From IMG/VR virus record IMGVR_UViG_3300014501_000076, positions 1 to 23,689 of that record: 23,689 bases of DNA; one strand, written 5' to 3'. The notes beneath the pieces are model-generated. The model did not search any database. It worked only from the letters and a program-made list of their open reading frames with translations, and was not told the DNA's origin. Source of the DNA: a virus. The position numbers were made by a program, and so were the translations under genes. Positions 1 to 21,588 of the stretch are shown piece after piece; position 1 is the first letter of the stretch; every line of letters starts with the position of its first letter.

Positions 1-479
1 AGCGAGCCTTCTGCAATCGCGCGCTTAGGGAACCCGGCAGAGCCCATTCCCCCGCCAGGAAAAGCGCTCCCTGATCCGCCGCCACCACCTGATCTACCAC
101 CGCCGCCTGTGCCTCCGCTGAATGTGGCACCTCCTGCGTTGCCCGTGCCGGATGGCGTTACCGGAATGCCGGTGACCATGCCGAACGCCTTTGTCACCCC
201 CGCCATAAATCCGCCGCTAGAGGACGAAGGCAGCGTTGTGCCCTGGCCGCCAGGCCCATTCGAGAACCCGCTCCCGCCCCCGACAGCACCTGATGCCTTA
301 CTGTAAAGCGCGGCGAGCTTGTCTACGGCAGCGGCAAATTTATCAATTGATGCCTGAAGCTTGTTTGTTCCGAGCATGCCAGAGAAAGCATCAGCGGAAG
401 GCGTAGAGGAGAAGGTGCCGGACCCAGTGATGTCACTGTTGTCATCGTCCGCGAACCCAAGACCTGTGCTAGGCGGCAT
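1..479 (-). CDS. Probable tape measure protein, N-terminal part (cut by window edge)
   Basis: The frame opens with ATG at 477-479 and stays open for 159 codons to the window edge, so only the N-terminus is visible. The protein starts MPPSTGLGFADDDNSD, has a short helical stretch around residues 40-65 (KLQASIDKFAAAVDKLAALY), then becomes very rich in glycine and serine. The start lies one codon after the stop of the frameshifted chaperone extension (TAG at 483-485, same frame), which suggests translational coupling. Tape measure proteins set tail length and follow directly after the tail assembly chaperones in most long-tailed phages. The assignment rests on that position plus the low-complexity helical N-terminus, not on a recognised domain. 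A different large tail protein is possible. Confidence 0.6.
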   Translation of the reverse strand, partial: MPPSTGLGFADDDNSDITGSGTFSSTPSADAFSGMLGTNKLQASIDKFAAAVDKLAALYSKASGAVGGGSGFSNGPGGQGTTLPSSSSGGFMAGVTKAFGMVTGIPVTPSGTGNAGGATFSGGTGGGGRSGGGGGSGSAFPGGGMGSAGFPKRAIAEGS

Positions 480-482
480 TTC

Positions 483-735
483 CTACCCGGTTCCACTAAA
501 CGCGTCCCGAACCACGGCCTTGTAACCGCTCTTCGGCACTGTGCGACTGTGCACAGCGGGACGTTCCTTATGGTCGTGATCCCACTTTGCCCGCGCCCAT
601 TGTGCCCAGTAGGTGCGCTGGCGGAAAGTAAGATTCCCGAGAGTGCGTGGATTCCAGGCCGGGAATATAACGAGAATATCCGTGTAGTCCTGATACCGTT
701 GAAGCGCCGATGCGTCATGCGAGAAACAAGTCCCC
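483..735 (-). CDS. Frameshift extension of the tail assembly chaperone (G-T-like product)
   Basis: This second frame opens just after an in-frame TAG at 735-737, crosses the TGA of the upstream gene (715-717) and runs 78 codons past it to TAG at 483-485. It reads HDASALQRYQDYTDILV, then a Trp/Tyr-rich, charged stretch containing FRQRTYWAQWARAKWDHDH, which looks like real protein. It has no ATG, GTG or TTG until a GTG about 55 codons in, so it is unlikely to start on its own. The simplest reading is that it is made only as a C-terminal extension of the 289-residue protein by a +1 (or -2) ribosomal shift. This matches the gpG/gpG-T chaperone pair of long-tailed phages, which sits just before the tape measure gene. 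The sequence shows the open frame; the shift itself is inferred. Confidence 0.7.
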
Positions 736-738
736 TAG
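715..738 (-). other. Candidate ribosomal frameshift site
   Basis: On the coding strand the zero frame reads CTA GGG GAC TTG TTT CTC GCA TGA. A shift into the extension frame must happen between the +1-frame TAG (735-737) and the zero-frame TGA (715-717). Two +1 slips allow re-pairing: GGG moving along GGGG (732-735), and TTT moving to TTC (723-726). No standard X XXY YYZ heptamer for a -1 shift is present, and a -1 shift would enter a different, less protein-like frame. Confidence 0.55.
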
Positions 739-1584
739 ATCAACTGCCAGGGACACCTCTTTACCGCAATCCATGTCCGTAATCTTAATGTCAGTATACT
801 TCGGCCCAGGCTGACGATCAGTAATCTCAGACAGGATCGTGCGGCGGTCTGCCATTCCCAGGGACAATGCCATCCGGGGCGAGACAATCATCCGCCGCTC
901 CCGGCCGTCAGGCGTGGTGATAGATTCCACGCACTTCTGGATAATGATAGTGTTCCGCCTGGCCTGCGTCGGCTTCCCCTCGTTCAGGGCGGCCTGGGTG
1001 TTGCCGTCAGGCAAGCGCACCTTAGCCACGCTGCCGTTGCGAAGCGTAACCTCGAAAACATTGTCGTGAGGGTTGTCGAGTTTCCTGACCTCAATGTCAT
1101 CGTCCAGCTCGAACTCGATGTCAGAAATGTTGCCGCACTCCGGGCAGCGGAAGTTAAAGACCTTGATGCTGTTGCCGTATGTGGCCACCCGGATGCCGAT
1201 GAGCACGGCATCCCGGTCCCCGATAAGCAGGCGGCCCAGAAGAGCCCTGGTGCTGGCCTCAGGCTCATCCCCCACCTGCACCGTGCCGCGCTCCAGGAGC
1301 GTTGTGAGGAAGTGATAGGGCTCACCTGAGGCGAGGGCTCGGGCCAGTGCCTCCTCGTCCTCTCCGTTCAGCTCACGGACGCGTACCGTGGAGACCACGC
1401 GCTCATTATCCAGGCCCTCATCCAGGATCAGCCCGCCGGGAAGCGGAATTAGATCACAGGGAAATTCGGGGGGATCCGGAAGCCTGTCTTCTCCCGCAGC
1501 CATCGCGGCGGCCACGGCCCCTGCTGCCGCAGGGTGGCTGGCCGGAAGAAAGGCGGCCGGGATGTCAGTCGAAGGTGTGCCCAT
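715..1584 (-). CDS. Tail assembly chaperone / T4 gp26-like baseplate family protein
   Basis: This is a 289-residue protein with an Ala/Pro-rich start, then an acidic domain with VSTVRVRELNGEDEEALARA at about 64-83 and a single CxxC pair (FRCPECG, Cys147 and Cys150). A third cysteine sits near residue 273. The VRVRELNGEDEE...L pattern and the short CPxCG element are features I associate with the T4 gp26-like baseplate/chaperone family that sits between tube and tape measure genes in contractile phages. The start is ATG at 1582-1584, with GGAGA seven bases upstream. The role would be to hold the tape measure and tube subunits during tail assembly. The 3' end overlaps a second open frame (483-735) that looks like a programmed extension. 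Family placement is by motif memory and gene order, not by a search. Confidence 0.65.
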   Translation of the reverse strand: MGTPSTDIPAAFLPASHPAAAGAVAAAMAAGEDRLPDPPEFPCDLIPLPGGLILDEGLDNERVVSTVRVRELNGEDEEALARALASGEPYHFLTTLLERGTVQVGDEPEASTRALLGRLLIGDRDAVLIGIRVATYGNSIKVFNFRCPECGNISDIEFELDDDIEVRKLDNPHDNVFEVTLRNGSVAKVRLPDGNTQAALNEGKPTQARRNTIIIQKCVESITTPDGRERRMIVSPRMALSLGMADRRTILSEITDRQPGPKYTDIKITDMDCGKEVSLAVDLGDLFLA

Positions 1585-1625: not shown

Positions 1626-2186
1626 TCAGGAAGTAAAGCCGGGCACCTCGGCAGTTCCGGGACCCGGGGCGATCTGCACGGCAAAGCCCTCGTACACAAG
1701 CGCCATCTGGGTAATGAACAGCTGGTTCGCACCGGCATCCAGGTCAGACCATGCCATCGACGTCGGCCATGCGTTGTAACAGCGGAACAATGCCTTGACA
1801 GGATCGCTCGCCGTGGTAACCGGATGATCGAGCACCGAGATGTCAGCCAGCCACCGGAAGTTAGTGCCGGGAGCCTGGGTGCCCGAGCCCTGCATGACGG
1901 TAAAGAGCTGCTGGATCCACTGAAGATCCTGGGTTTCGCCAACGATAACGCCGTGAGAAAGAGTCAGCGGGTTAAAGGAAGCCTGCCCAGGCATATTCTG
2001 GGTCGTGGTGTTCATGCCGCCCTCACGGTACGGAATGACGTCGATGGTCATAGCCAGCCCGGAGACAGTCATGAAGCCCATCGTGATTGCCTTGCCCGAG
2101 GGCGGGCGGAGATCCACCTGGAACTTGAAGTTCCGCAGGGGATCGGTCGCAATCGAAGAGAGCGACGGGGACTGATTAACGGACAT
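1626..2186 (-). CDS. Tail tube protein (T4 gp19-like)
   Basis: This is a 186-residue protein, close to the usual length of contractile-tail tube proteins. The N-terminus holds the family pattern DPLRNFKFQVDL at residues 15-26, then GFMTVSGLAM, YREGGMN and LTLSHGV. These correspond to the beta-rich tube monomer fold that stacks in hexamers to form the DNA channel. The start ATG (2184-2186) is preceded by a strong GAGGAG site, expected for a highly made virion protein. It lies 11 bases after the sheath gene, the normal sheath-tube order. I am confident of the family. Confidence 0.9.
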   Translation of the reverse strand: MSVNQSPSLSSIATDPLRNFKFQVDLRPPSGKAITMGFMTVSGLAMTIDVIPYREGGMNTTTQNMPGQASFNPLTLSHGVIVGETQDLQWIQQLFTVMQGSGTQAPGTNFRWLADISVLDHPVTTASDPVKALFRCYNAWPTSMAWSDLDAGANQLFITQMALVYEGFAVQIAPGPGTAEVPGFTS

Positions 2187-2197
2187 TAGCTAGCTCC

Positions 2198-3754
2198 TCA
2201 AGAACCGGCGTTAGTGGTGCTGACAGAAGTCGTGCCGTCACCCTGGAACATCGAGAGAGTGATGTTGATGTACTCTGCCGGGCTGAGCAGCGACACTGCG
2301 ACAAGCATGTTGACGATGCCCGCCGATGCCTGCGCGGGAGTAGTCGTGGTGTCATCGCAGGTAACCATGAATGAATCGGCAGGCGTGTCCCCGCCGAGCT
2401 GCCCGGCCTGGAGAAGCTGTCCGAGGTAACCCTGGATCACCGTGGTCATCTGCTTCCAGAGAACAACATCGTTCGGCTCGAACAGCGCGAACTGAAGCAG
2501 CCACTTAAAGTCGTGCTCCAGCTTGATGATCATCCGGCGAACGGCGATATACCTGTCCGGGTACCCCGGGTGAAGGGTGCGCCCGCCGAAGATGCAGAAG
2601 CCGATTCCCGGGATGAGCTTAACCGCATTGACGAAGTTATCGTTCAGGGTGTCGAGCTGCGCATTAGAGAAACGCGCCTCAAGGTCAATGACCTTGAGCG
2701 TGTTCCCGATTCCGGCCGGGGTCTTAACCGTGCCGAACGTGGCGTCCGTCCAGTTCCACTGACCGAGCACCGCGCCGCCGGGAGGCAGGTACCTGGTTGC
2801 GCCGGGGACAGTGCTCGAAGGATCCTGGCAAAGCAGCCAGGGAGCGTACACAGCCAGGTAGGTAGACGAGGGCAGCGCCGTATCCCCGCTGACCATTGCC
2901 AGGTAATTGGAGGTAACCGTGGCGGTTGTCTCCGGAAGGTCGGGCACAGGTCCGTCCACGACGAACATCGTGTCGCCGCGAGCGGCAGCCCAGCTATCCA
3001 GCGTGGTAAGCGTGGTGGTGTCATCCAGGCCGGGGATGTTCACGTACAGCGCCTGGTTAAGCAGGGTGTCGAGCTGAGCGGGAACGGCGACGGTAAGGTC
3101 GGGTGCGGTAACACCGTCGTTGCCCCCGGTCAGGGGAGAAGGCGAAACCAGGGAAAGGTCAGTCTCGCCCAGTACATAGGGGCCGCCGAGGTTCTCGGAA
3201 AGGACGACATACTGCGAGCCTGAGACCGGGGAGTTAACCATGTTCACGATGTAACGCGGGTCGGAGGGGGAAGTGGAAAGATCCTGGAAGGTCTCAACCA
3301 GGTTCGTGTTCGCGGTGCCGTTGTAATAGATGTTGAAGCTGATGCGCCCGGCGGTGCCTGCGGAAACTACCTCGACGTAAATGTTCTGGCCCCAGACTCC
3401 GGGGGACAGCGCGGTGACGGTAACGATGTCAGACGGTGATTCCGCGACATCCAGGAGACTCAGTGATGCCGGGACCGCGTCAGAGTTAGGCACCCGGACG
3501 ATAAATAGCTGAGACCCTCCGTTCAGGAAGAACTGATTGACAGCAAAGGGAAACAGGTTGCCAGGGTCGGTGGTGAAGTCACCGTAAAGATTGGTGAACT
3601 GCGACCAGGAAGTGATGGGGGTCGGAGCGATAGGTCCCCGGGGGAAAACACCAGCGATGCAGGGCAGCGCCTCACCAGGAATGGCCGGGCCATTATTGGA
3701 AAGCGGAGCGAAGTTCTCTGTTACGAAAACTCCTGGGCGTCCGGTAGTCGGCAT
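2198..3754 (-). CDS. Tail sheath protein
   Basis: This 518-residue protein begins with the sheath signature RPGVFVTENF and GVFPRGPIAPTPITSW, followed by the variable protruding domain (about 90-330). The conserved C-terminal region is also present: YIAVRRMIIKLEHDFKW, FEPNDVVLWKQM and IVNMLVAVSLLSPAEYI. Sheath subunits polymerise around the tube and contract to drive it through the host envelope. Length, end motifs and its place directly before the tube gene all agree. The start ATG at 3752-3754 follows AAGGAAATAGC. This gene is the main evidence that the phage has a contractile tail. Confidence 0.93.
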   Translation of the reverse strand: MPTTGRPGVFVTENFAPLSNNGPAIPGEALPCIAGVFPRGPIAPTPITSWSQFTNLYGDFTTDPGNLFPFAVNQFFLNGGSQLFIVRVPNSDAVPASLSLLDVAESPSDIVTVTALSPGVWGQNIYVEVVSAGTAGRISFNIYYNGTANTNLVETFQDLSTSPSDPRYIVNMVNSPVSGSQYVVLSENLGGPYVLGETDLSLVSPSPLTGGNDGVTAPDLTVAVPAQLDTLLNQALYVNIPGLDDTTTLTTLDSWAAARGDTMFVVDGPVPDLPETTATVTSNYLAMVSGDTALPSSTYLAVYAPWLLCQDPSSTVPGATRYLPPGGAVLGQWNWTDATFGTVKTPAGIGNTLKVIDLEARFSNAQLDTLNDNFVNAVKLIPGIGFCIFGGRTLHPGYPDRYIAVRRMIIKLEHDFKWLLQFALFEPNDVVLWKQMTTVIQGYLGQLLQAGQLGGDTPADSFMVTCDDTTTTPAQASAGIVNMLVAVSLLSPAEYINITLSMFQGDGTTSVSTTNAGS

Positions 3755-11513: not shown

Positions 11514-12128
11514 TTACCTCGCGAGAATGGGGGCCTCCTTCATTGTAGCGAGAAACTCATCGCCGTTCTTCTTATTCTTCCGGTAGTTACAGGATCCGCA
11601 GGCGTGCACGATGTTCCACCAGTGATCAGTTCCGCCGTTGTGCAGGCTGATGTAGTGATCAAAGTGCCACTTCTTCGCAGAAGTAGTGCCGCAGTAGAAA
11701 CAGGTATCGTTCCTGATTGCCTTCCTGTAATCACGGGAGATGCCACGATCAAGGGCATCCATCGTCTTGTAAGCATTTGACCTGCGCTGCGCGTTGGTGG
11801 CCGCTCGTGACTCCGGGTTGTTCTTCTCCCAGGCTAGGGCGCGGGTAATAGTCAGCGCTTGATTCTCCTGATACCACTTAGCTTTACGTTCGCGCTGAGC
11901 GGGTTGCTGCATGTAGTGCGTGATGCACAAGCCGAGCCTCACAGCAGGCTCAGAGCACTCTTTGCAGGTCTTCCCTGCGTTCTGCACCTTGATGATGATC
12001 GGGGTGGTGGAGAAGTTCTCGCCCATACGCAGGTAGCGCTTGTAATGAGGGTTGCAGAGCCAGAGAGCCTTGGAGTACCGGGGGCGACCACAGTCAGGGA
12101 GCTTACACAGGTGTGGGTTCAGGTCCAT
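11514..12128 (-). CDS. HNH homing endonuclease
   Basis: This is a 204-residue free-standing endonuclease. The N-terminal half has two zinc-finger-like modules (CKLPDCG...LCNPHYKRY and CKECSEPAV...LCITHY). The C-terminal half is an HNH domain: CFYCG at 143-147, HFDHYISLHNGG at 155-166 with the catalytic His, Asn172 in WWNIVHAC, and CGSCNYRKNK at 177-186. Such genes spread by cutting phage genomes that lack them. It sits in a gap between two structural genes, ending with AGGTAA that supplies the ribosome binding site of the next gene. A leader with a predicted hairpin lies upstream. Confidence 0.85.
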   Translation of the reverse strand: MDLNPHLCKLPDCGRPRYSKALWLCNPHYKRYLRMGENFSTTPIIIKVQNAGKTCKECSEPAVRLGLCITHYMQQPAQRERKAKWYQENQALTITRALAWEKNNPESRAATNAQRRSNAYKTMDALDRGISRDYRKAIRNDTCFYCGTTSAKKWHFDHYISLHNGGTDHWWNIVHACGSCNYRKNKKNGDEFLATMKEAPILAR

Positions 12129-12767: not shown

Positions 12768-13346
12768 TCAGCCCATTTCACAGTGGGGAACAGGAGCCTT
12801 GCGACTCCGCCCAGAGGTAATGCAGTAGACGTAGTGCTCGGTAATTCCGTACATCTCAGCCAGTCTGCCTTTACTTATTCCGAAAAACTTCAGTGCCTTT
12901 ATCTCTTGCACTTGCTCTCGTGAGATAGCCCGCGCGTCATACTCTTCGTGACACAGTCTGCACAGTGCAATGTAGTCCTGAGGATTCAGTCCTGTTGTCC
13001 CGTGAAGCTGCGCCCACTCAAAGCGGTAGACAGCTTCCATTGTATGGCAGTGAGAGCAAGGACCATTAGCTTTGCCTCGCGCCCGCTTAACCCGCTGATG
13101 CCGGGTGTTGTAACTTGCCTGATCTCCCGACCAAGAACCATTAGTACTTCCCCTGGCTGTCCCTCCTCTTCGGGATAGTGTGGCATGCGGAGGTCTCAAG
13201 GCTGTGCCACAACGTAGCAGGGCGTTTCTTACCGCGTTATACGTTGCCCCGCGTTCGGTCGCAAGCATGCAAATGCTTTCGCCACCAAGATACTTAGCGC
13301 TCAGCTCTGAAGCAACTTCAGGAGGAAAAAATGGGGGACGGCCCAT
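12768..13346 (-). CDS. HNH endonuclease with helix-turn-helix ends
   Basis: This is a 192-residue protein. The N-terminus (PPEVASELSAKYLGGESICM) looks like a resolvase-type helix-turn-helix. The middle carries the HNH-family element WSGDQASYNTRHQRVKRARG at 72-91, then CSHC at 97-100. Trp111 and DYIALCRLCHEEYD at 124-137 supply the remaining metal and catalytic positions. The C-terminus is a second helix-turn-helix (GISKGRLAEMYGITEHYV). Its ATG (13344-13346) overlaps the previous gene's stop (TAATG), so it relies on coupled translation rather than a leader hairpin. It sits against the disrupted start of the next structural gene. Confidence 0.78.
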   Translation of the reverse strand: MGRPPFFPPEVASELSAKYLGGESICMLATERGATYNAVRNALLRCGTALRPPHATLSRRGGTARGSTNGSWSGDQASYNTRHQRVKRARGKANGPCSHCHTMEAVYRFEWAQLHGTTGLNPQDYIALCRLCHEEYDARAISREQVQEIKALKFFGISKGRLAEMYGITEHYVYCITSGRSRKAPVPHCEMG

Positions 13347-13890: not shown

Positions 13891-14478
13891 TCAGTGTCCT
13901 TGGTAGCCCGCCGGGCCACGTTTGTTCAATGCTCTCATCCTACGGTAAGTTTGCTCTTGCCAGATAGCGTCCTTACGTCTTTCAGGATGAGCCTTGCACT
14001 CTGCTGTGTACTCGATCCCCAGCTCGGCGCGTTCTTTCTTACCCACCATGCAGGGGATCACCTGGGCTAGAACAGCAGCCGCCTGAGACCCCCCGCATCT
14101 CCAGGTGTAGGTTTGTTTTCTGTTTGAAGTTTCTTTATGCTGCACCCTTGTAGATCCTGCGCCTGTGATTCGTTCCACATGCGCCAGCAATTCTTGATTA
14201 GTATTCGCTATCTGCAAGGTAAGACTTAGGGCTTTTTTAGCTCCGCCTGTGTATAGCGCCACATGCCCATCGCCGTCAATCAGACCGGCGAGATACGCCG
14301 CCTCAGTGGAGGACATCTGCCGGGGCAATTTAGCTTTTGGCCCAGGAGCGTATCCTTTGCGGGAGCATTCTTGCGAGCAGAACTTTCGTGAGCGTTTACC
14401 ATGAAGCGCGCCCCCGACCAGGAAGGTTCGGGGGCATGCCTGGCAGACTTTTTCTTCGGGGACAACCTTAGCTACCAT
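13891..14478 (-). CDS. LAGLIDADG homing endonuclease
   Basis: This 195-residue protein has an N-terminal zinc finger (CQAC at 12-15, then FCSQECSRKGY with Cys34 and Cys38). It has one LAGLIDADG motif, AYLAGLIDGDGHVAL at 61-75, whose Asp/Gly-Asp residues form the active centre. With a single motif it should work as a homodimer on a near-palindromic site. The rest (LTLQIANTNQELLAHVERIT, TYTWRCGGSQAAAVL) matches the beta-saddle DNA-binding fold. It starts two bases after the stop of the 168-residue gene; a small hairpin (ACAT-GTA...TAC-A-ATGT) lies just upstream of the ATG. Confidence 0.88.
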   Translation of the reverse strand: MVAKVVPEEKVCQACPRTFLVGGALHGKRSRKFCSQECSRKGYAPGPKAKLPRQMSSTEAAYLAGLIDGDGHVALYTGGAKKALSLTLQIANTNQELLAHVERITGAGSTRVQHKETSNRKQTYTWRCGGSQAAAVLAQVIPCMVGKKERAELGIEYTAECKAHPERRKDAIWQEQTYRRMRALNKRGPAGYQGH

Positions 14479-14998: not shown

Positions 14999-15661
14999 TT
15001 ATCCTGAGTATTTTCCGATGTCATTCCATGCCTCCAAGTAGTTTACCGCATTTCGGAGAACGGCTATGTTGTCGTGGAACAGCCCCAGGCAATGGTTGCA
15101 GTTCTTGCAGAGCAGCCCACGCACGCACTTTCCGCACGACTTCCGCCCAGGGCAACAGGCGTGGTCGTGGTCGATGTGCGGGTTGAGCATTGGTTCACTG
15201 CACACCCCACACCGGCCGGACTGCGCGATGAGCATCGCGTCAAACCGTTCCAGCGTGATGCCGTAGCTCTTGAGCAGTATTCGGCGGCGGGACGCTGTGG
15301 CGCAGATGCGGCAGTGCCTGCGCCCCTTGTACACATAGGTGTTGTCCGGGGTGTACTCATGTTTCTTCGGGCAGTGGGTCTTTGCCTTGTTGAGTCCGCC
15401 CTGGCCAAGGCCGGGTGTCCGACGCGACTGCATCCGCTCGCGCTGGCACGCTCTGCACACCCAGTAGCCCTGGTTGTTCCTGGTGTGCTCAGACGCATCG
15501 TGCGGGCAGTTCTTGAGATGTTCTGATGCTGGCTTTGGCGGCTTCCACACCGCGCGGCAGTCCTTGCAGCGCAGGCGGGTGCCCTCGGTGTAGGTGTTGC
15601 CCTCGGTGAGCAGGTGCCTGCGTCGGCAGTGCCCGCCGATAACGTATGGCTTCGCTGACAT
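14999..15661 (-). CDS. Endonuclease VII-type HNH homing endonuclease
   Basis: The 220-residue product starts with three zinc-binding modules, each a C/H pair then CxxC: HCRRRH...CKDC, CPHDASEH...CRAC and CPKKHEYTPDNTY...CRIC. The C-terminal part is an endonuclease VII domain, with YGITLERFDAML at 133-144, CGVC at 151-154, HIDHDHACCPG at 162-172, and CVRGLLCKNCNHCLGLFHDN at 179-198. That domain, with its HNH core and zinc site, cuts branched or specific DNA. The gene sits between the capsid gene and the 168-residue gene and has a nested leader hairpin that covers its ribosome binding site. It is very probably a mobile gene. Confidence 0.88.
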   Translation of the reverse strand: MSAKPYVIGGHCRRRHLLTEGNTYTEGTRLRCKDCRAVWKPPKPASEHLKNCPHDASEHTRNNQGYWVCRACQRERMQSRRTPGLGQGGLNKAKTHCPKKHEYTPDNTYVYKGRRHCRICATASRRRILLKSYGITLERFDAMLIAQSGRCGVCSEPMLNPHIDHDHACCPGRKSCGKCVRGLLCKNCNHCLGLFHDNIAVLRNAVNYLEAWNDIGKYSG

Positions 15662-17657: not shown

Positions 17658-20393
17658 TCAGCTATTGCTGTTCTTGTCGATGTCCCTGAGCGCGCTGCGC
17701 TTAGGTCCGTAGGCTTCAGTAACTAGCTGAGAATAGATATTGTTGCTTGCCTCGTCTATCATACCGGCAACGACAGGATTCATAGGAGGCAATGGCGGGG
17801 CACCCTGAACGGCAGGCGGCGTATCCTGCGGAACAGGCTTTCCGTCAGCGTCAGTCTGAGGCGGCGGCGGCTGCTCGGAATCGTCGGTCATCTGCTGCCC
17901 GGTCATCTCCAGGATGTAAGCAGTGATCTGCGCCTTGATAAGCGCGAATGCGCCTTCCTGAATGGCGTCAGTCTTCTGCTCATCGAACAGCTCGCGAAGC
18001 TTCTCGTCCGGGAATTCCTCGCCCAGCTCGCGCAGCGCGCCCTTCCTGGACTCCAGGCGCAGGGCCAGCTTCTGCTGAATCTGCTCCAGCAGGATCAGGA
18101 TGTCCACTGGCAGCGGCGAGTCCCAGACGCACTCGGTATTGTACACATCCGGGTCGGACGGGTCGATGAAAGGCGGCTGGCCTTCTTCCATGATCCCGTC
18201 TGTATTCGGATCATAGAAAATCGTATTCGGCTCGGCCTGGAACAAGGTCATCAGGATCAGCTTGTTAAGCTCGCACAACCCCGGCTTGCCGTACATGATT
18301 TTCTTCAGCCCGAACTTCATGGTAGTCGGCATGTACTGGATCGACAATGCCACCCCGGAGGTATTGGAGATAGCCTGCTCCTCGCCCAGGGAGTTAGCGT
18401 TGACGCCTGCCAGCTCGTGCATCGCGGTCTTAATCCGGTCCAGGAACTCCATCGCCGGGGCAAGACCCTGGAATCCGCCCGCAAGGTTGAAGACCTTAGC
18501 CTTGTCGCTGCCCAGTCCCCAGATCTTTGCCGGACCCTTCTCCAGGTTCGGGGGCTTGCCCCCGGTGATCACCGTGATAGGCGCGGCATGATAATTGATA
18601 ATAGTCGAGATTTCCGTGGCCTTCTCGTTGTACTCACGGTTAAGCGGGATAAGCTCCCACACGTCAGACAGCCCCCAGGGCGAGCCTGCGGCGGGGGCAT
18701 TGGCAATATGGACGATCGGTATGCGCCCCAGCGGATTCGGCCGGGGGGAGCCCACGCAGAGCTGGTCGTTAAGGTACTCGCGGATCTCCGAGGGCGTGAT
18801 GATCTCACAGTTTCCCGTCCAATAGGTAACGCCATTTCGTCGGGCCAGCCAAGTTCCCGTGCGTACAGTGGGGCACCAAACCTTGCCGGTATAGCTCTCT
18901 TCTGAAACCTTTAGATAACGAAATGCCGAGTACGAGGTCCGGTACACAGACACTGACGAACAGTCTTCACCATGTGGGTGTGTTGCCGTAGCAGTTCCTA
19001 GCATGGCAGCTAGCATTTGAAAGCTGTCTATGCGTCCCTGATCTTTTTGCGCCCAGGTGTTTAGCCCGGTGTCCATGCGTCGATGCCCGTCAGCGTCAAT
19101 GCAAGTCTGGTAAAACAGCCGAGCCTGAACTTCAGTAAGCGTCCCCAAGAACGCCACAGTGATCTGCTTTTCGGGAGCCGTATTTCTGATTTGGGCTCCC
19201 AGGTCACCACTGAAGAAAAAGTCTACGACTGTATCGTCTCGACCAGTACGGGCGTACTCTCTGGTTCGACAGCCCTGCGCCGCAAAGTGTTTACTAAGCA
19301 AGCGAATTCGTTCAACATAGTCCGGGTTTGCAGACAGTGACTGAGTTACGACTACTGCGCGCTCCCCTTGCGTAGTATGCCGGTAGTACCCCTCATTTAC
19401 TACCCATGCCATCAGCTCCACAAATTCATCACTATAAACTTTTTCGGAGGGGAAGTGAGCAGGTGTCCCGCCGCCCAGGTACAACTGGTCCCCTCCGCGT
19501 CCTGGAGTGAACTCATGCGTACGCTTCACCTTTAGGGGACGGTCACCCGTACGCCCCTGGCGTGCAAGCCAACGGTGATCCGGAGTAGTTAGGGCGTCAA
19601 TCTTCTCACCCTGCCAGCGTGTAAGTGGGCCATCCCAGTCAAACACGTTGAGCTTCTGCAATGGCTCCCAGGTGATGTCTTTACTGGTTTGATCCACTGA
19701 CAGCAGTTCATCCGTTGCCTGAATATCCCAGCGATGCTTCCATCCGTCCTTAGTAAGAACCTCTGTCTCGTCATCGACACAGTAGGTATTTATCAGCCTG
19801 GTACCGTCCGGCGCGGTGGACCAGAACTTGTACTTCAGCTTGAAGGATTCCATCCGGCTGCGGTCATGCGGATGCCAGGTCGGAAAGCAGTGCGCGGGGT
19901 TCAGGGGGATGATGCGGACCCGGGGAGGATGAAGCATTCTCGCGTCATCCATAAAAGCATCCTCGTGTGAGACCTTAACGAACACGTCCCCGTAAATCGA
20001 GCCCATGTTCCCGATTTCCCAGAGAAGCTTCGACTTATCGTTGTCGGTATCCCAGGCGCGGTCAAGCAGAGCGGGGATGATGTGCTGGAACTCCCAGGCG
20101 CAGTTGAAGCTGACGCCTTTCGAGAAGCAGAAGTTTGTGAGAAAGTCGCTGAGTGCCCGGACGTAATTAAAGACTAGCTGCTGATCGCCAACCGGCTGCT
20201 TCCATGCCCAGTGGTGACCCAGGTAGAAGGCTGCGGCATTCGCGTACCTGACCATGCGTAATCGAGGGCCATGTACTTCAAATTCTTCATCGCTAAGCTC
20301 AATCATCCCGAGCGGCGAGATCTGTACTGCTAGATCTCCGCCCGAAGCTCTCATCGAAGGTGAAGGGAAGTCCATTGACACTTTTGGCATCAC
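17658..20393 (-). CDS. Portal protein interrupted by an in-frame intein
   Basis: The frame of 911 residues can start at GTG (20391-20393) or the following ATG (20388-20390), which has GGGGG just upstream; numbering here uses GTG. The N-extein (1-204) and C-extein (529-911) together give a 587-residue portal-like protein. Its features include FVKVSHEDAF, RVRIIPLNPAHCFPTW, then GRIPIVHIANAPAAGSPWG, DVWELIPLNREYNEKATEIS and AISNTSGVALSIQYMPTTMK, followed by a Pro/Gln-rich tail. Portals form the dodecameric ring through which DNA enters the head. The insertion falls directly after ...RLINTY, ahead of CEIITPSEI. The portal should work only after splicing. Confidence 0.87.
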   Translation of the reverse strand: MMPKVSMDFPSPSMRASGGDLAVQISPLGMIELSDEEFEVHGPRLRMVRYANAAAFYLGHHWAWKQPVGDQQLVFNYVRALSDFLTNFCFSKGVSFNCAWEFQHIIPALLDRAWDTDNDKSKLLWEIGNMGSIYGDVFVKVSHEDAFMDDARMLHPPRVRIIPLNPAHCFPTWHPHDRSRMESFKLKYKFWSTAPDGTRLINTYCVDDETEVLTKDGWKHRWDIQATDELLSVDQTSKDITWEPLQKLNVFDWDGPLTRWQGEKIDALTTPDHRWLARQGRTGDRPLKVKRTHEFTPGRGGDQLYLGGGTPAHFPSEKVYSDEFVELMAWVVNEGYYRHTTQGERAVVVTQSLSANPDYVERIRLLSKHFAAQGCRTREYARTGRDDTVVDFFFSGDLGAQIRNTAPEKQITVAFLGTLTEVQARLFYQTCIDADGHRRMDTGLNTWAQKDQGRIDSFQMLAAMLGTATATHPHGEDCSSVSVYRTSYSAFRYLKVSEESYTGKVWCPTVRTGTWLARRNGVTYWTGNCEIITPSEIREYLNDQLCVGSPRPNPLGRIPIVHIANAPAAGSPWGLSDVWELIPLNREYNEKATEISTIINYHAAPITVITGGKPPNLEKGPAKIWGLGSDKAKVFNLAGGFQGLAPAMEFLDRIKTAMHELAGVNANSLGEEQAISNTSGVALSIQYMPTTMKFGLKKIMYGKPGLCELNKLILMTLFQAEPNTIFYDPNTDGIMEEGQPPFIDPSDPDVYNTECVWDSPLPVDILILLEQIQQKLALRLESRKGALRELGEEFPDEKLRELFDEQKTDAIQEGAFALIKAQITAYILEMTGQQMTDDSEQPPPPQTDADGKPVPQDTPPAVQGAPPLPPMNPVVAGMIDEASNNIYSQLVTEAYGPKRSALRDIDKNSNS
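18810..19781 (-). mobile_element. Portal intein with LAGLIDADG endonuclease (324 residues)
   Basis: It starts at Cys205 (CVDDETEVLTKDGWKHRW, splicing block A) and ends at Asn528 before Cys529. Block B is DALTTPDHRWLARQ with Thr-x-x-His. The endonuclease part has the two helices LMAWVVNEGYY and FYQTCIDADGHRR. Block F is GKVWCPTVRTGTWLARRNG, and the last residues are WTGN followed by Cys. Cys1, the TxxH and Asn plus Cys+1 predict a class 1 intein. The usual His before the last Asn is replaced by Gly. The DNA length is an exact multiple of three and the flanks rejoin in frame. Confidence 0.9.
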
Positions 20394-20940: not shown

Positions 20941-21588
20941 CTATCGCCGCCGCTCTGGGTTCCAGTTGTTCCTCGGGGTACTGATCGCATCTTCATCTTT
21001 CCATCCTAGCCGATTACGCGAGTCCAATGTTTTCTTGGATACCAGGCACCGCTCGTCGTCTGCCCAGTCGGGCAGTGACTTTGTTTCACCGAACGCTGTC
21101 AGCATCTTGTTCATCCGCGTGTTGCGGAGGTTGACTTTCCTGGTCACCCACCGGCAGTTGCCCGGCGAGTAAGGACCGTCATTGTCTATTCTATCAATGT
21201 CCAGCTCAGGAGAGTAACCGTTGCTGAGCGCCCAGGAGCGGAAGACCTCGAAGTCCTCCCAGGCCGGGTCAATGGTGATCCCTCGGCCGCCGTAGTTTGG
21301 GTACTCCTTGCGCTGCGGGTTGTTGCACCGTTCCCGCATCCCGCGCCAGATGTGGTGGAGTTTGGTCTTGGACTGGCCATGCGTTTTGGTACGAGCGGAC
21401 GTGACCTCACGCTGCAGGCACCCGCAGGACTCGCTCTGGAATCCCCCCTTGAAAACAATCTCCCTCTCGGTTCCACAGGAACACCTGGCGGGGAACCACG
21501 CCGCGCCACTCTTTTCCCGGCGGAACTCTGACGACAAGATGGTCCATCGCCCGTGGGTGAATCCATTGTGAACATCGGCAGCACGCAT
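20941..21588 (-). CDS. HNH/AP2-type homing endonuclease
   Basis: This is a 215-residue protein. The N-terminus has a zinc-like module (CSCG at 36-39, CGC at 55-57). The core is LHHIWRGMRERCNNP at 77-91, YGGRGITIDPAWEDFEVF at 99-116, and LDIDRIDNDGPYSPGNCRW at 129-147 followed by N-rich NLRNTRMN. That core defines a family of phage and bacterial endonucleases combining an HNH-like nuclease with DNA-binding elements. The C-terminus has a DNA-binding-like region (TAFGETKSLPDWADDERCLV). A strong nested hairpin covers its ribosome binding site. It separates the 138-residue gene from the small peptide and appears to be an insertion. Confidence 0.85.
   Translation of the reverse strand: MRAADVHNGFTHGRWTILSSEFRREKSGAAWFPARCSCGTEREIVFKGGFQSESCGCLQREVTSARTKTHGQSKTKLHHIWRGMRERCNNPQRKEYPNYGGRGITIDPAWEDFEVFRSWALSNGYSPELDIDRIDNDGPYSPGNCRWVTRKVNLRNTRMNKMLTAFGETKSLPDWADDERCLVSKKTLDSRNRLGWKDEDAISTPRNNWNPERRR

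Follow-up and report, generated by a model that had tools for sequence, protein, structure and literature searches.

The stretch of viral DNA analysed here (IMG/VR record IMGVR_UViG_3300014501_000076, positions 1 to 23,689; hereafter the window, 23,689 nucleotides (nt) in full) carries a myovirus structural module on its minus strand, the assignment to a myovirus following from the tail sheath gene upstream. Within it, a gene related to T4 gp26 sits between the tail tube gene and a tape-measure-like gene, and the frame that comes next overlaps its end and lacks a start codon; the initial annotation had read this arrangement as a tail chaperone extended by an apparent +1 (or -2) ribosomal frameshift. 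Comparison with relatives leads us to conclude that the two frames very probably encode, by way of programmed +1 ribosomal frameshifting, the G/G-T pair of tail-assembly chaperones of a phage with a contractile tail. The features concerned, followed by their neighbours, are:

715-1584, minus strand: gp26-like gene of 289 residues, the short product and proposed tail-assembly chaperone (G analogue), matching PF12322 (T4_baseplate)
483-734, minus strand: +1 frame extension without a start codon (T analogue), identified by its open frame, substitution pattern and motif
721-729, minus strand: candidate slip site TTG_TTT_CTC (UUG_UUU_CUC)
732-753, minus strand: predicted hairpin TCCCTGG-(8 nt)-CTAGGGG, -8.6 kcal/mol
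754-762, minus strand: Shine-Dalgarno (SD)-like AAAGAGGTG, proposed upstream half of a stimulator, identified by its duplex with the 16S ribosomal RNA (rRNA) tail
3-479, minus strand: start of the tape-measure-like gene, taken from the list of open reading frames (ORFs) and continuing off the window
1626-2186, minus strand: upstream neighbour, tail tube protein (gp19-like; PF06841, E 8.2e-24)
2198-3754, minus strand: upstream neighbour, tail sheath protein (PHROG 23, E 1.5e-39)

The gp26-like ORF stops at a TGA (717-715), and the extension is open from 734 to a TAG at 485-483, with the ATG of the tape-measure-like gene (479-477) following 3 nt later. A start-less frame (734-483) that overlaps the gp26-like stop and ends just before the tape measure is thus present as initially described, and the accompanying geometric argument also holds: relative to the gp26-like frame the extension is +1/-2, a -1 shift is excluded, and the shift is confined to about 18 nt (734 to 717). 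The first ATG, GTG or TTG of the extension is codon 58 after the slip codon, past a conserved R-x-R-x-x-W motif. Joining the frames at the TTT at 726-724, after F287, gives a predicted product of 366 residues.

The first-frame protein matches PF12322 with an E-value of 1.1e-12 (48.5 bits, above the curated cut-off of 24.5) and also matches PHROG 150, baseplate hub. A sequence search of the PDB with this protein gave no match, and Foldseek returned none against the PDB at E 0.001 or better. When an AlphaFold2 model of the protein (predicted local distance difference test score 88) was compared using VIA-align, with 888 PDB chains realigned, the top two matches were the HK97 tail assembly chaperone (2ob9, Z 6.7) and YqbN (3klu, Z 6.5), the next match scoring 4.4; these chaperone-like matches agree with the gene's position, though their Z lies below the safe level. 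YqbN we take to be a prophage chaperone-type protein. In annotated cultured relatives the tape-measure position is occupied by a large gene, which is labelled tape measure in SP-15, LIS04 and immuto.

Searched at the protein level, IMG/VR and the named phages yielded hundreds of relatives, from which 314 gene-bearing loci were reduced to 141 distinct loci with enough downstream sequence; a search of genome contigs with one pattern only found no relative. By their slip codons, described below, 80 of these loci form group A (UUU_C) and 59 form group B (CUU_YUA), together 139. The longer open frame after the stop is +1/-2 in 140/141 distinct loci, the sole exception (L267) being truncated, and the conserved set includes the finished Streptomyces phage genomes BRock, GiJojo, LuckySocke and pSt2308. 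The median ratio of nonsynonymous to synonymous substitution rates (dN/dS) of the extension in its own frame is 0.10 in group A and 0.15 in group B, compared with 1.2-1.9 when the same DNA is read in the other two frames, a pattern of purifying selection on the extension. Because 140/141 loci keep the frame and dN/dS is low in that frame only, the extension is conserved far beyond chance. Its alignment contains the invariant R-x-R-x-x-W and also a GW/GF-x-L pattern.

These comparisons bear directly on whether the frame break is simply a sequencing error or a decayed gene. A lone contig might indeed contain an indel, but the same break recurs in 140 distinct loci, finished Streptomyces phage genomes among them, the extension is under purifying selection, and no close relatives with an uninterrupted frame were found; we regard the probability of an error or of decay as negligible. 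The initial annotation had named two findings in relatives that would undo its reading, an extension with its own conserved start codon and one continuous with the first frame. Neither turned up: no start codon is conserved in the extension frame across the 139 loci, and in 0/140 loci does the extension continue from the first frame. In 56/139 loci there is no start codon within the first 30 extension codons, and a start with an SD is found in just 3. The alignment with relatives that it had called for supports its reading, with the frame change in 140/141 loci and TTT_C in register in 80/80 group A loci.

Two side observations concern the extension in individual loci. In L018 (3620-5064) the extension frame continues into a long tape-measure-like frame (1444 nt), unlike in near-identical relatives, probably through an indel error. 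In the deposited genomes L160, L318, L319, L323 and L082-L085 the extension, directly before the tape measure, either lacks an annotation or has been entered as a small gene that begins at an internal start.

Slip sites were sought by listing all codons in the overlap whose transfer RNA (tRNA) could re-pair one base downstream, and at least one such codon exists in 140/140 loci. The slip codons fall into three classes: UUU_C in 80 loci, CUU_UUA or CUU_CUA in 59, and UUU_U in Listeria phage LIS04. The CUU_YUA loci form one clade of the tree (support 100/99). In the window the TTT (726-724), in the peptidyl (P) site, can re-pair +1 as TTC (725-723), and TTT_C and its position are kept in all 80 group A loci, where TTT is followed by CGN in 70, CAR in 6, CTC in 3 and CTA in 1. 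Synonymous identity at these codons is well above expectation, for the group A TTT (1.00 vs 0.61 expected), for the TTG that precedes the slip codon in 69/80 group A loci (0.97 vs 0.35) and for the group B CTT (1.00 vs 0.37). In L004 and L005 the zero frame does not stop until 8 codons beyond TTT, yet TTT_CGT is still in register.

The initial annotation left open whether the shift is +1 or -2 and offered both TTTC and GGGG as places for it. Both sequences are present, and it is TTTC that is conserved as a slip site; +1 fits, and we prefer it because none of the conserved codons allows re-pairing after a -2 move. A -2 shift is used by phage Mu, whose G run the GGGG of the window resembles, and +1 and -2 arrive in the same frame. 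A -2 shift would nonetheless place tRNA-Phe on UGU at TTG_TTT and tRNA-Leu on a non-pairing codon at NCA_CTT, against clean +1 re-pairing in 140/140 loci, and the GGGG is limited to the window's small lineage and base-paired in a stem; we give a -2 shift scarcely any credence. A +1 slip at GGG_GAC (735-730), with TTT_C as a relic, would let tRNA-Gly re-pair perfectly, and this site is the second candidate in the window and in L002/L003. The remaining group A loci, however, lack GGGG there and have TTT_C in register, and the G run of the window lineage forms the 3' arm of the stem, opposite CCC, so that this site too we judge highly improbable.

Two further ideas were tried and rejected. One was a rare codon in the aminoacyl (A) site, but neither CGN nor YUA is rare in these genes. 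TTT_CGN is absent elsewhere in the group A gp26-like genes, and across all genes of those loci its count is near expectation (56 vs 63.9 expected), so that any global avoidance of it was judged weak. Separately, in all long ORFs of the group A loci in-frame TTT stands before CT or CC far less often than expected (ratios 0.16 and 0.21) and TTT_GC and TTT_AA occur at expectation; the depletion of TTT_CTN and TTT_CCN possibly reflects avoidance of +1-prone pairs.

Upstream of the slip codon, the strongest unexpected constraint on synonymous sites lies 60-70 nt away, at GGGGAGGTG in group A and at GAGGTG in 59/59 group B loci. These far SD-like elements are near-perfect complements of the 16S rRNA tail, at a fixed distance and with a mean duplex energy of about -12 kcal/mol. 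Loci without a far element (the window, the Streptomyces phages, L004, L005, L010 and LR756508) mostly carry one at -39 to -28, so that in nearly all relatives the element stands at either -69..-61 or -39..-28; in the window it lies at -35 from the slip codon, with a duplex of about -9.6 kcal/mol. A duplex of -8 kcal/mol or better in either position is present in 137/139 loci, the strong SD-like sequence standing 33-69 nt ahead of the slip codon; among the other 24-nt bins of these genes the share is 4.1%.

Between the SD-like element and the slip codon lies a hairpin. The window has the SD-like element (762-754) adjoining the stem (753-732), of which GGGG forms the 3' arm, then 5 nt, then TTT. 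The SD-to-slip stretch is predicted to fold as one stem-loop in 139/139 loci, and the linear spacing of 24-62 nt falls, with the hairpin looped out, to mostly 1-8 unpaired nt (5 in the window). Mean folding z is -2.35 at -75..0 in group A loci with a far SD and -2.04 at -60..15 in group B, compared with about 0 to -0.9 further upstream. Of the cells counted on ungapped alignments, 91.7% are paired in group A and 92.7% in group B, and cells changed on both sides are more frequent than in shuffled data (29 vs 12.1+-2.4 in A; 16 vs 5.1+-1.9 in B) or in slid controls (at most 8 in A and 2 in B); these alignments were not fitted to the structures, which were nevertheless derived from the same sequences. 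Near-SD loci have a shorter hairpin, individually significant in LR756508, L019, BRock, GiJojo and pSt2308.

A stimulatory structure downstream of the site was considered and rejected, as directly past it neither the window nor most individual sequences fold better than their shuffled versions, and the average dips at +45 to +135 lie farther along. In groups A and B folding energy falls a second time (mean z about -2) at +45 to +150 after the slip codon, within or just past the extension, which possibly marks the tape-measure start region. A ribosome queue, in which SD elements 30 nt apart hold trailing ribosomes, was dropped because the hairpin explained both SD spacings.

An SD followed by a hairpin could also serve initiation. 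The extension would then be a separate small protein, its SD and hairpin forming a split ribosome-binding site from which translation begins at a non-standard codon immediately past the hairpin, a layout like that of T4 genes 25 and 38; the TTG conserved before the slip codon in group A might be taken for such a start. That TTG, however, is in the zero frame and so would start a peptide of only a few residues, and no ATG, GTG or TTG is conserved in the extension frame, where the window has its first at codon 58. The conservation moreover coincides exactly with the codons able to re-pair +1, and relatives that require a -1 shift carry slippery T runs at the same place, and we consider separate initiation very improbable.

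Under the +1 frameshift that we favour, most ribosomes would produce the 289-residue gp26-like protein, and a minority would slip +1 while tRNA-Phe is on the UUU at 726-724, re-pair with UUC and continue in the second frame to give the 366-residue protein carrying the T domain. The extension is encoded next to the tape-measure gene, and by analogy its role may match that in lambda gpG/gpGT. Relatives would slip at UUU_CGN or, in the one clade, at CUU_UUA/CUU_CUA, with tRNA-Leu moving from CUU to UUY. That ribosomes slip here, how efficiently they do so and what each stimulator contributes are inferred. The hairpin may refold behind the passing ribosome and bring the SD element next to the messenger RNA (mRNA) exit of that same ribosome, where SD-16S rRNA pairing and the hairpin itself would loosen contacts in the exit (E) and P sites and favour the +1 slip. 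Because the hairpin leaves mostly 1-8 unpaired nt, close to the 3 nt of prfB, the arrangement suggests a looped-out ("split") SD stimulator of +1 shifting.

Alternatively, the SD and hairpin may serve ribosome pausing, protein coding or mRNA decay, with UUU_C alone enough for the slip. SD-like sequences by themselves can reportedly pause ribosomes (PMC3673220), and the region encodes a conserved Cys-rich stretch. The synonymous positions of GAGGTG and of the stem pairs are nonetheless constrained beyond coding, the element shifts position together with a shorter hairpin in other lineages, and in an in vitro 70S system SD pairing and an upstream hairpin or duplex each raise +1 shifting (PMC6321510); we think it unlikely, though with appreciable probability, that the two elements do not stimulate the slip.

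Several points weigh against a +1 shift with a split stimulator. The window has CUC as its A-site codon, where the UUU_CGN class typically has CGN. The hairpin of the window alone is not significant against shuffles (P 0.13), nor are those of L004, L005 and L008 individually, of which the near-SD L005 and L008 have ordinary folding energies; the SD-like element of L024 is weak, and an upstream hairpin would need timely refolding behind the ribosome. The VIA-align Z of 6.5-6.7 is under the level that the tool calls safe. The loci are related, so that the counts are of non-independent events, and the slip classes and stimulator were defined after inspecting the data. The whole case rests on comparative sequence evidence, in which the frame, the selection on it, the slip codon, the SD element and the covariation of the stem can be read directly. 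Even so, many lineages conserve the frame, the slip codon, the motif in the protein and the order of the genes, which supports extension of a tail chaperone by +1, as first proposed.

We also think it rather probable, with less confidence than for the frameshift itself, that these loci share a new bacterial +1 recoding signal, in which a hairpin brings a distant SD to a sense-codon slip site (UUU_C or CUU_YUA), in diverse myoviruses whose chaperone has been filed as the T4 gp26 baseplate protein and whose distant relatives switch to -1. Among those distant PF12322 relatives a T-like extension, usually unannotated, lies in the +1 frame in LIS04, SP-15, Streptococcus GXN1 (TTT_CGT), Mel-JY01, immuto and LR756508 (TTT_CTA). 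It lies in the -1 frame in XacN1 (L321), Atu_ph07 (L324) and probably LR756511 (L320), the first two at T-rich slippery runs and the last with a less clear end to its first frame. Since homologues use +1 or -1, the G-T pair can be made by shifts in either direction.

The initial annotation had called a +1 site unusual in a tail chaperone. Such sites are uncommon, but +1 chaperone frameshifting at TTT-CGC had already been reported or predicted in the haloarchaeal myoviruses HSTV-2 and the HF1 group, and a 2020 paper tied that site to the UUU_CGN of eukaryotic viruses (PMC7230728, PMC5009743), so that +1 shifting in a chaperone is in itself no novelty. Those viruses differ in having archaeal hosts and a UUU_C codon without a strong upstream GAGGTG, and no CUU_YUA form; the first coding sequence of HSTV-2 is 177 residues long, and the first coding sequences of HSTV-2/HF1 gave no match to PF12322. 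In influenza A PA-X and amalgavirus, tRNA-Phe slips from UUU to UUC before Arg CGN, and the abstracts of the two reports mention no SD-hairpin element (PMC3498833, PMC5052127). The phage sites would share the UUU_CGN slip, on bacterial rather than eukaryotic ribosomes, and the window and 80/80 group A loci have the P-site UUU followed by C, although the phage family, unlike PA-X and amalgavirus, also uses CAR and CTN after UUU and the window has CTC.

The lambda gpG/gpGT pair and the -1 type of Xu, Hendrix and Duda are alike in having a short chaperone and a rare longer T-domain form next to the tape measure, and unlike in direction, in slip codons and in a protein family that is not PF12322; the extension of the window is not in their -1 frame. 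Bacterial prfB (RF2) has an SD-stimulated +1 slip, on CUU as in group B. Its SD stands at a linear distance of 3 nt and its A site holds UGA (PMC12421855), whereas the phage loci have a sense codon there (CUC, CGN or YUA) in place of a stop and an SD 24-62 nt away with a hairpin between. In T4 genes 25 and 38 an intervening hairpin brings the SD near its target, cutting SD-AUG spacing from 27 to 11 and from 22 to 5 nt, for initiation at AUG rather than frameshifting and reportedly only in close T-even phages (PMC3014915). The combination of SD and hairpin in frameshifting was not found in the literature searched, most subscription papers being outside its reach; what appears to be new is the family in bacterial phages, its CUU_YUA form, the split-SD element and the fact that homologues switch between +1 and -1. 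As a separate observation, the 3' end of T4 gene 26, itself PF12322-type, contains the SD-hairpin that serves gene 25 (AAGAGG, then CTCAAAG-AGTT-CTTTGAG; L088 5850-5800, minus strand), which may be coincidental or may represent a former frameshift signal put to new use.

To our knowledge, few sites of forward frameshifting on sense codons and no general stimulator are known, and such shifts are therefore hard to predict. The loci described here would supply a large aligned natural family with an explicit signal of SD-like element, hairpin and slip codon, and would add bacterial phages to the eukaryotic and archaeal viruses known for the UUU_CGN +1 site. Within the gp26 family, filed as "T4-like baseplate hub", this branch is recast as likely tail-assembly chaperones, and its homologous G-T pairs use +1 in some lineages and -1 in others. 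The extension would also account for why several deposited myovirus genomes have, ahead of the tape measure, a gap without annotation or a small gene given the wrong start.

Elsewhere in the window, a 911-residue protein (17658-20393, minus strand) matches portal proteins only over residues ~514-822, with ~500 residues ahead of the matching part. At least five HNH or endonuclease VII-like genes are spread across the structural module on the minus strand (11514-12128, 12768-13346, 13891-14478, 14999-15661 and 20941-21588), an unusually dense group of likely homing endonucleases.
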